Origin: a virus
IMG/VR virus record: IMGVR_UViG_3300031566_000197
Coordinates: 1 to 35,050 of that record
DNA: 35,050 bases
Reading direction: 5' to 3' (one strand)
The notes beneath the pieces are model-generated. The model saw only the letters and a program-made list of their open reading frames with translations, was not told where the DNA came from and made no database searches. A program made the position numbers and the translations under genes. Numbering within the stretch: the stretch's first letter is position 1; the number at the start of each line of letters is the position of its first letter. This document shows positions 1 to 35,050 of this stretch, piece after piece.

Positions 1-149
1 AATCCCGCGCCTACAGACATTACAGATACTATTACAGATAACACCTTGGACAAGCACTCGATTTCATACCCCAAATACAAAACCATAATAATCGAATATC
101 TGAACAAGGCAGTGGAAAAGAACTTCCCGATAGTCAGTAAGGTCACAGA
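1..149. repeat. Terminal direct repeat of the contig, left copy (partner 34902-35050)
   Basis: Bases 1-149 match 34902-35050 in the same orientation with one difference: A at 61 versus C at 34962, changing Ile to Leu in the initiator. The open reading frame of the initiator passes through both copies in the same phase. This is what a circular or circularly permuted genome looks like when assembled linearly. The real unit length would be 34,901 bp. Confidence 0.9.
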
Positions 150-444
150 TAAATTCCTTAAAACAAGGTACAGCGAAGGACGCACAGTAGAGGAATGTAA
201 GCTCGTGGTAGACAATAGAGTTAAGAGGTGGCTCAAGGATCCAGAGAGGTATCAATACCTGCGCCCATCAACGCTGTTCAGGCCCACAAACTTTGAGAAT
301 TGGATCACGGAGGCCCGGGCCGAACAGGCAAAAGAAATGGCTGGCAGGAAACGCAAAGAAGAATATGCCAAGGAGACAAAAGAGGGCGCAGAGAAAGCAC
401 AGCGCGAGCTGGCAGAGAAGGCCGGAAAAGGAGGCAAAGAATGA
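1..444 (+). CDS. Replication initiator (O-like), C-terminal part; gene begins at 34425
   Basis: This is the 3' part of the replisome-organiser gene that starts at 34425 and runs across the contig join; the frame is open from base 1, and the full protein would be 306 residues. The visible part carries the conserved phage C-terminal domain known as TIGR02220/Phg_2220_C: a YLN..V.KNF opening, a region on variable modified positions, then VDNRVKRWLKDPE and a YLRPSTLF motif. It is followed by a charged Lys/Glu-rich helical tail. In the family this part is thought to help load the host replicative helicase after the N-terminus binds the origin. It ends in an ATGA overlap with the next gene. No helicase or helicase loader is recognisable nearby, so dependence on host DnaB is inferred. 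Confidence 0.9.
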   Translation, partial: NPAPTDITDTITDNTLDKHSISYPKYKTIIIEYLNKAVEKNFPIVSKVTDKFLKTRYSEGRTVEECKLVVDNRVKRWLKDPERYQYLRPSTLFRPTNFENWITEARAEQAKEMAGRKRKEEYAKETKEGAEKAQRELAEKAGKGGKE

Positions 445-4011: not shown

Positions 4012-4725
4012 ATGCCATTAAAAATATCTCACGGTAATATGTACGACTGGATAACCCACATGCACAGTCATCTGGGTGGAGAATGTCCGCATCGATGTTA
4101 TTATTGCTATGTCCAAAGAAATCCCCGGGGAGTTAGCGGAAGGTATCAGGGCGAAGTAAGGCTTATTAGAGAGGAGTTAGGGGTTAATTATGGAGCAGGA
4201 AGAATTATTTTTATTGAGCATATGAACGATATGTTTGCTGAAGGTGTTAAGGAAGAATGGATAAGAGATATTTTTGCTCATTGTAACCAGTATAAAGAGA
4301 ACACTTATATTTTTCAGACTAAGAACCCTGGAAGGGCGCATCAGTTCAGAGATTACTTCCCTAAGAAATTCCTGATAGGCACTACAATAGAAACCAACAG
4401 GGATGTAAAAGAGAGCAAAGCGCCATGCCCAGAAGAAAGATTTCTGGGTATTAGAAAGTTCTTAGAGTTTGATTCTTATAGAGACAACACTGAAATTTTT
4501 ATCACCATTGAGCCTATAATGGATTTTGATGTTGATGTTTTGTTTGACTGGATAACAAAAGTATATCCCTCATTTGTGAATATCGGAGCTGACTCTAAGA
4601 ATACTGGCTTAGCTGAGCCATCGCCTGATAAGGTAAGAAACCTGATTAGCTTATTGAACAGTAGGGGCATAGCAATCAGGAAAAAGATGAATTTACATCG
4701 GTTATGGCGGGAGTTCCCGGAATGA
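4012..4725 (+). CDS. Radical-SAM family protein related to phage DUF5131-type proteins
   Basis: This 237-residue protein has the radical-SAM cluster motif C25-x3-C29-x2-C32 (ECPHRCYYCYV), which binds a 4Fe-4S cluster and S-adenosylmethionine. Downstream it reads IIFIEHMNDMFAEGV (about 65-79), FQTKNPGRA (about 100-108) and IGTTIETNRD, the same order of motifs as DUF5131/Gp37-like phage radical-SAM proteins and more distantly spore photoproduct lyase. Substrate unknown; nucleic-acid modification is an inference. The ribosome site AAGGAGG at 4001-4007 precedes the ATG at 4012. It overlaps the next gene by four bases, so the pair is probably co-translated. Confidence 0.8.
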   Translation: MPLKISHGNMYDWITHMHSHLGGECPHRCYYCYVQRNPRGVSGRYQGEVRLIREELGVNYGAGRIIFIEHMNDMFAEGVKEEWIRDIFAHCNQYKENTYIFQTKNPGRAHQFRDYFPKKFLIGTTIETNRDVKESKAPCPEERFLGIRKFLEFDSYRDNTEIFITIEPIMDFDVDVLFDWITKVYPSFVNIGADSKNTGLAEPSPDKVRNLISLLNSRGIAIRKKMNLHRLWREFPE

Positions 4726-29346: not shown

Positions 29347-29922
29347 TCAAACCTTCTTAATAACCCTCACCACTTTCCCGATTATATCCACTTCCTTTGA
29401 CCGAATAGATTTGTATTTTGGGTTCAAAGACTTCAGTTCAATATAATCCTTCCGTTTGAAAAATTGCCTGATTCCCGTTTCTCCTTTGTAACGAGCCACG
29501 ACAATATCTCCATTCTCTGCTATTTCTTGCTTTCTTATTGCCAAGATATCGCAGTCTTCAATCTTCGGCGACATCGAATCACCATCGGCTCGGATAGCGT
29601 AATGACCTGGCACGGCTAAATATCCTTCAAAGTTCTCCTCAACATCTATCGGGCCCCCAGCGTGGATAACTCCATAAAGCGGAAGGTTGCGGAACTCGGG
29701 AGGGATGCCGAGCTTGGGTTCTTCTTTTTCCTCATAAAAATAACCGATGGGTTCTTCCAATGCTTCGCCAAATTTACGAAGAAGCGATTCGGGGACTCTT
29801 TTGGTTCTGCCTATTTCAATCCTTGAAACCTTGTTCTGAGTAATACCGACTTTCTTAGCAAGATCTCCCTGACTCATTTTTTGGATAATTCTTTTTTTCA
29901 AAATCTGGGACCCAATAGTCAT
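29347..29922 (-). CDS. CI/LexA-like repressor (HTH plus S24 peptidase domain)
   Basis: The 191-residue protein has an HTH_3 domain at about 6-60 (MSQGDLAKKVGITQNKVSRIE), a linker with the A88-G89 cleavage pair (VIHAGGPID), and an S24 domain with nucleophile S116 (DGDSMSPK). After NGDIVVAR the position where LexA has its catalytic Lys appears to be R152 (ETGIRQFF). So the fold is that of CI, but RecA-stimulated self-cleavage may be weakened. It would repress the early promoter at 29970-29998 by binding the palindromes nearby. The start at 29922 has GAGGT upstream. Confidence 0.9.
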   Translation of the reverse strand: MTIGSQILKKRIIQKMSQGDLAKKVGITQNKVSRIEIGRTKRVPESLLRKFGEALEEPIGYFYEEKEEPKLGIPPEFRNLPLYGVIHAGGPIDVEENFEGYLAVPGHYAIRADGDSMSPKIEDCDILAIRKQEIAENGDIVVARYKGETGIRQFFKRKDYIELKSLNPKYKSIRSKEVDIIGKVVRVIKKV

Positions 29923-34267: not shown

Positions 34268-34444
34268 ATGTCTCAAAATTGGGAAAATGAGAGTAATGAT
34301 CCAAGGGACTTCGAAATCAAAGATCCACAAATCCTGGCAGTAAAAAGGGTAATGGATAGGATTTTTGCCAGGGAGCAGAAGAAAGAGCGCAGGAGGAGAG
34401 ACCGGGAGATAGCAAGGAGAAAAAATGGCCAGGCCTCAACTTGA
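34268..34444 (+). CDS. Small charged protein ahead of the initiator, 58 residues
   Basis: ATG 34268 follows GGAGGT (34258-34263); an in-frame ATG at 34256 lacks a site. The protein has an acidic start and a highly basic helical end (REQKKERRRRDREIARRKNGQ). It overlaps the initiator by 20 bases. It may bind DNA or RNA; function unknown. Confidence 0.6.
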   Translation: MSQNWENESNDPRDFEIKDPQILAVKRVMDRIFAREQKKERRRRDREIARRKNGQAST

Positions 34445-35050
34445 GAATGGCTATATTCGCCTTGCTGACGAGATAGCCCGGGCATTCATGAAGATCAATC
34501 TCAGCCCCCAGGAGAACCGGGTACTGTGGGCAATAATCAAGGAGACATACGGTTGGCGACAGAAGGAAAAGGGCATACTGCTTGCCAAGTTTTCGGAGCT
34601 CACTGGTATGTCAAAGCCTCATGTCTGCGATGCCTTAAAGAAGCTCCAGGCCCGCAGAATAATCGCCAAAAAGGACGGGAAATATTCCCTACAGAAGGAC
34701 TATGAGCAATGGGTCGGGATCAAGCTCCCGGTCACAGAAACGTTCCTTAAACAGGGAACGCTTATTCCCCAAACAGGGAAAGAAAATTCCCCAAACGGGG
34801 AACAGCTATTCCCCAAACAGGGAAAGAAATTCCCTGAACAGGGAATGAATGTTCCCCAAACAGGGAACGAAAAATCAAAATCAGTCAATAAGAATAAAGG
34901 AAATCCCGCGCCTACAGACATTACAGATACTATTACAGATAACACCTTGGACAAGCACTCGCTTTCATACCCCAAATACAAAACCATAATAATCGAATAT
35001 CTGAACAAGGCAGTGGAAAAGAACTTCCCGATAGTCAGTAAGGTCACAGA
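34425..35050 (+). CDS. Replication initiator (O-like), N-terminal part; continues at base 1
   Basis: This is the 5' part of the initiator, whose end is at 444 on the circle. ATG 34425 follows AAGGAG. Residues 1-90 are the phage_rep_O winged-helix domain: GYIRLADEIARAFMKINLSPQENRVLWAIIKETYGW, then LTGMSKPHVCDALKKLQARRIIAKK. Between this and the C-terminal domain lies a segment built from short repeats with PQTG and PKQG, which is the translation of six iterons. The lambda O protein has the same arrangement: N-terminal domain binds iterons that lie inside its own gene. The frame stays open across the join. Confidence 0.93.
   Translation, partial: MARPQLENGYIRLADEIARAFMKINLSPQENRVLWAIIKETYGWRQKEKGILLAKFSELTGMSKPHVCDALKKLQARRIIAKKDGKYSLQKDYEQWVGIKLPVTETFLKQGTLIPQTGKENSPNGEQLFPKQGKKFPEQGMNVPQTGNEKSKSVNKNKGNPAPTDITDTITDNTLDKHSLSYPKYKTIIIEYLNKAVEKNFPIVSKVT
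34743..34900. repeat. Replication origin: six iterons and an AT-rich stretch inside the initiator gene
   Basis: Six copies of the 16-bp palindromic unit TTCCCCAAACAGGGAA start at 34743, 34765, 34787, 34809, 34830 and 34852, so the period is 22, 22, 22, 21 and 22 bases, about two helical turns. Copies 2, 4 and 6 are identical; copies 1, 3 and 5 differ by one to two bases. A strongly AT-rich stretch follows (34868-34900). The spacing puts all copies on one face of the DNA, as in lambda ori. The unit period is not a multiple of three, so the DNA repeat, not the protein, is what is conserved. Confidence 0.9.
34902..35050. repeat. Terminal direct repeat of the contig, right copy
   Basis: Same 149 bases as 1-149 apart from C at 34962 (A at 61). 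It shows that the two window ends join. Confidence 0.9.

Follow-up and report, generated by a model that had tools for sequence, protein, structure and literature searches.

The O-like initiator gene

The window analysed here, the entire 35,050-nucleotide record of an environmental phage (IMG/VR IMGVR_UViG_3300031566_000197), carries an O-like initiator gene that runs off one end of the record and resumes at the other (Table 1). The overlap of the two record ends is 149 bp long and has one mismatch, in an Ile/Leu codon of the O gene. The gene can therefore be read through to position 444, and the repeated ends make it probable that the genome, of about 34.9 kb, is circular or terminally redundant. 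A second contig, L007, carries the gene in its entirety (1362-2282, 306 aa) and is identical across the matched 208 residues. It is the sole close relative found, with an identical O protein; the contigs scanned yielded none that was close yet not identical.

The product belongs to the lambda O-type family by its PF04492 score (79-80 bits, curated cut-off 28.7) and by TIGR01610 (63.9, cut-off 45.5), which bears out the claim of the sequence-only reading that a phage_rep_O N-terminal domain is encoded upstream of the repeats described below. The C-terminal part is a member of the Phg_2220_C family (PF09524, 75.7 bits, cut-off 27). In an AlphaFold2 model the N-terminal domain has winged-helix secondary structure with helices at residues 53-60 and 64-76, so residues 66 and 69 lie near the start of the predicted recognition helix. 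Searching the PDB by sequence gave no O-family structure; the hits of the sequence and fold searches were mostly generic winged-helix regulators (such as CodY, MarR and CRP), none of them an O protein.

Table 1. Coordinates of the features at the O-like gene, numbered from the first letter of the window
Feature	Position	Strand	Details
O-like initiator gene, 5' part	34425..35050	+	continues at record start to 444; 306 aa in total
O-like initiator gene, 3' part	1..444	+	positions 1-149 repeat 34902-35050
Phage_rep_O DNA-binding domain, residues 5-96	34437..34712	+	PF04492 E 4e-22, TIGR01610; AlphaFold2 pLDDT 87
Predicted recognition helix, residues 64-76 (K64 P65 H66 V67 C68 D69)	34614..34652	+	AlphaFold2 model; covariation with iteron bases
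H66 codon	34620..34622	+	
D69 codon	34629..34631	+	
Iteron 1	34743..34758	+	TTCCTTAAACAGGGAA
Iteron 2	34765..34780	+	TTCCCCAAACAGGGAA
Iteron 3	34787..34802	+	TTCCCCAAACGGGGAA
Iteron 4	34809..34824	+	TTCCCCAAACAGGGAA
Iteron 5	34830..34845	+	TTCCCTGAACAGGGAA
Iteron 6	34852..34867	+	TTCCCCAAACAGGGAA
AT-rich tract, candidate unwinding element	34869..34904	+	78% AT, A-rich on + strand
Phg_2220_C domain, residues 189-260, candidate replisome-contact domain	88..303	+	PF09524 E 3e-21

A palindromic iteron array with an adjoining AT-rich tract

Six units of 16 bp each occupy positions 34743-34867, with spacings of 22, 22, 22, 21 and 22 bp, or about 2.1 helical turns. Relative to TTCCCCAAACAGGGAA, 3/6 units have no mismatch, one has a single mismatch and two have two. 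The whole 35-kb record contains exactly six copies of the unit at up to three mismatches, all of them in the array, against a chance expectation of 0.48, and 0/100 shuffled controls reached six copies. The six near-identical 16-bp units at 21-22 bp spacing described in the sequence-only reading thus agree with the positions, the mismatch counts and the shuffles. Its statement that each unit is a TTCCC...GGGAA palindrome is exact for 5/6 iterons, which have the form TTCCC-N6-GGGAA, but not for iteron 1, which begins TTCCT.

The repeat could in principle belong to the protein, as a proline/glutamine-rich linker whose DNA likeness is a by-product, and a loose FPxQGx or PQTG motif does recur in the peptides that the units encode. 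Since 22 is not divisible by three, however, the units are read in all three frames of the O gene (0, 1, 2, 0, 0 and 1 for iterons 1-6) and specify different peptides: FLKQGT, IPQTGK, NSPNGE, FPKQGK, FPEQGM and VPQTGN. When the codons of the O protein were redrawn synonymously 1000 times, the number of unit copies averaged 0.88 and never exceeded 4, against the 6 observed. The repeat is therefore kept at the level of DNA and not primarily of protein. The palindromy of the DNA and its covariation with the DNA-binding helix (see below) also count against a protein repeat, an explanation that we rejected on the synonymous redraws and regard as very improbable.

The tract directly 3' of iteron 6 lies at the 99th percentile of 36-mers in this genome, which is 54% AT overall. 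The AT-rich stretch previously said to follow the units is thus real over these 36 bp, but it is short: 50-bp stretches from 34869 onward are merely 62-64% AT, and the DNA beyond the tract is only mildly AT-rich. GC skew is positive over the entire record without a turn at the array; it thus says nothing independent about where an origin lies and was dropped as uninformative. A 9-mer, ACTATTACA, lies 3' of the iterons both in this phage (34929-34937) and in lambda (L468, 531-539); it is part of a DTIT motif in both proteins, and the match may be one of chance.

Iteron arrays among relatives

Relatives were collected from viral contigs (the distant ones by alignment queries) and from genome contigs, with lambda, phi80 and other named phages added. 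In the genome contigs a single-sequence query found no relative while an alignment query did retrieve relatives. The set used for counting comprised 110 loci with an array of at least 3 units, a palindrome score of at least 2.5 and less than 85% mutual identity in the domain. The arrays have 3-8 units and are located as in this phage. Three units were found in 34 arrays, four in 52, five in 14, six in six, seven in one and eight in three (L042, L048 and L416, all within the O gene). The minimum of 3 units follows from the selection; in the first set, before selection, a minority of the 167 loci had just 1-2 units. With six or more units in 10/110 non-redundant relatives, the six of this phage are not exceptional. 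In 95/110 arrays the units are spread over two or more reading frames. Toward their 5' (distal) end, 59/110 arrays (e.g. L042, L048, L020, L102) contain a short spacing of 17-20 bp, and spacings of 21-24 bp predominate among the units adjoining the AT tract, whereas the array of this phage is evenly spaced.

Comparison with characterized initiators

The arrangement resembles the lambda origin, where palindromic iterons inside gene O (frames 0, 2, 2 and 1) are likewise followed by an AT tract. Lambda differs in having four 18-bp units (annotated iterons 1-4, L468) with spacings of 20, 24 and 23 bp, TCCC-type half-sites that are farther apart, and a P loader downstream. Six units and a palindromic unit had been put forward as distinguishing this array from lambda. 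Neither is a novelty, because the lambda iterons are themselves imperfect inverted repeats (PMC7466680, PMC6022878) and the Stx phages P27 and 933W have, as here, six iterons within O (PMC7466680). In P27 and 933W the units are of lambda type, and strong in vitro binding was seen at only four of them, yet the other two are needed.

An array in the corresponding place was found in phi80, whose gene 15 initiator (JX871397, L008) belongs to the same family with 34% identity over 72% of a 208-aa query. Its annotated gp15 sites are 16-bp palindromes, TTCCCGAAAACGGGAA, placed within the gene at a spacing of about 21 bp. The phi80 unit matches that of this phage at 13/16 positions, and both have the form TTCCC-N6-GGGAA. 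There are four sites in phi80 rather than six, 3/4 of them in one reading frame, and the next gene, 14, is lambda-P-like, whereas none was recognised in this phage. Initiators that share both the O-like N-terminus and a C-terminus like that of this phage were found at about 20 loci, some of them redundant; their iteron spacings, and mostly their half-sites, are unlike those seen here.

Repeats of this kind could bind the O-like protein and yet serve mainly for regulation, through autorepression or incompatibility-type handcuffing, with replication beginning elsewhere. Plasmid iterons are generally known to regulate copy number in many cases, and ectopic copies of the lambda origin are reported to arrest lambda proliferation (PMC4488673). 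Here, however, the array lies within the gene beside an AT tract, as in lambda, where the array is the origin, and no further copy of the unit exists anywhere in the record. We consider a mainly regulatory array improbable and an origin much the better reading.

Covariation of the recognition helix with the half-site

The half-sites of the relatives have the general form GTTXYC, where X is the fourth base and Y the fifth. Half-site bases were called just where both half-sites agreed. A link between residue 66 and Y was first suggested by inspection, when the recognition helix was tabulated against the half-sites. In the first set residue 66 ranked top of the protein columns for Y (z 13.6, next column 9.0), also with 60% clusters (9.0 against 4.4). 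The rule H to C, N to T and R to G was fixed before the held-out loci were fetched. These were 53 new loci with less than 85% identity both to the first set and among themselves, and they were passed through the same pipeline.

H66 occurred with C in 16/16 held-out loci and N66 with T in 9/10. For the combined set the counts were 44/46 and 20/22, respectively, and of the 92 columns residue 66 ranked first for the fifth base (z 19.7, runner-up 11.1). When the held-out loci were ranked by themselves, residue 84, which lies in the predicted wing region, tied with residue 66. One enterobacterial array class needed a one-base register shift; without those loci H went with C in 40/42 and N with T in 20/22. 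On a FastTree tree built without the recognition helix, H and N interchanged at residue 66 at least 15 times. Independent H/N pairs on supported branches were 6 concordant and 0 discordant, for which the sign test gives only p = 0.03. Two further pairings were tried and discarded. R66 with G failed on the held-out loci (R with C 3, with G 1). The link of D/E69 with C was weaker, holding for E in 2/3 and for D in 0/1 of the held-out loci, and the independent pairs gave no significance.

For the fourth base the leading columns were 65, 63, 56, 70 and 69, all in the helix-turn-helix region, although single-residue rules were weak. These comparisons suggest a code within the O family, in which residue 66 would set the fifth base (H with C, N with T) and residues 63, 65, 69 and 70 go with the fourth. 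We think it likely that such a code holds and that specificity could thereby be predicted from the protein and altered by a single substitution. Genetic evidence from the 1970s suggested that origin specificity is set by the N-terminal part of O (Furth and Yates 1978, as cited in PMC6022878); an earlier account of a residue-66 code was not met in the open-access literature, though one may exist. Among phi80-like O proteins, N69 (L166, L170) occurs with TTACC and D69 (L008, L143) with TTCCC, a possible natural change of specificity.

This phage matches the rule, with H66 and a TTCCC half-site, although other half-sites occur in the relatives closest to it in overall identity (43-53%). By sequence comparison alone, the covariation links the N-terminal domain to its own iterons and lends indirect support to their specific binding. 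It thus bears on whether the array might be the target of some other DNA-binding protein, such as the S24-type repressor encoded at 29347-29922. Repressors of that type usually bind palindromes, as is general knowledge. Nevertheless, there are no copies of the unit near the repressor gene, and among relatives changes in the half-site accompany changes in the O recognition helix. A repressor target is accordingly given very little credence.

A proposed lambda-type origin

Two sequence features that characterize a lambda-type origin were found at this locus: palindromic direct repeats inside the initiator gene, 3' of the DNA-binding domain, and an adjoining AT tract. The earlier reading of a probable origin in the O-like gene is the one best supported by the PF04492 match, the lambda-like order of elements, the placement of the array and half-site as in phi80, and the covariation of helix and repeat. 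We consider it very probable that a lambda-type replication origin lies inside the initiator gene, with the array as its iteron part, and that the explanation as a whole, including the mechanism below, holds. In this explanation the array DNA would also encode a flexible linker of the O-like protein.

The mechanism is modelled on lambda, in which O dimers on the iterons form an O-some and the AT tract opens (PMC7466680, PMC6022878). For this phage we infer binding, dimer formation, melting, helicase recruitment and origin activity as follows. The N-terminal winged-helix domain would bind each 16-bp palindrome, probably as a dimer, with the half-site TTCCC read by recognition-helix residues including H66. 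Six dimers on roughly the same face of the DNA would form an O-some-like complex, which would strain and open the 36-bp AT tract adjoining iteron 6. Recruitment of the host helicase, directly or via a host loader, would then fall to the C-terminal Phg_2220_C domain. This last step is proposed because no P-like loader was recognised; if none is encoded, the helicase step must differ from that of lambda, and we infer that the Phg_2220_C domain is the obvious candidate for the helicase contact.

The arrangement itself is known. The locus adds to the textbook lambda-type origins that of an environmental phage in which the initiator combines the DNA-binding domain of lambda O with a Phg_2220_C domain and no helicase loader was recognised. 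Beyond the sequence-only reading, the analysis adds the covariation of residue 66 with a base and the completion of the gene through the end overlap. The wider comparison weighs more than the site, as the covariation offers a testable explanation, at the level of single residues, for the choice of its own origin by the O of each phage. This matters because the sequence search of the PDB yielded no O-family structure.

Among the neighbouring ORFs scanned (the small ones in part), none gave a P-, DnaC-, DnaB- or DnaI-like match. Those scanned include a PD-(D/E)XK nuclease, exonuclease-like proteins, a Holliday junction resolvase and a DNA methyltransferase, and no helicase. The early region also holds a DUF5131/radical-SAM-like gene, at 4012-4725.
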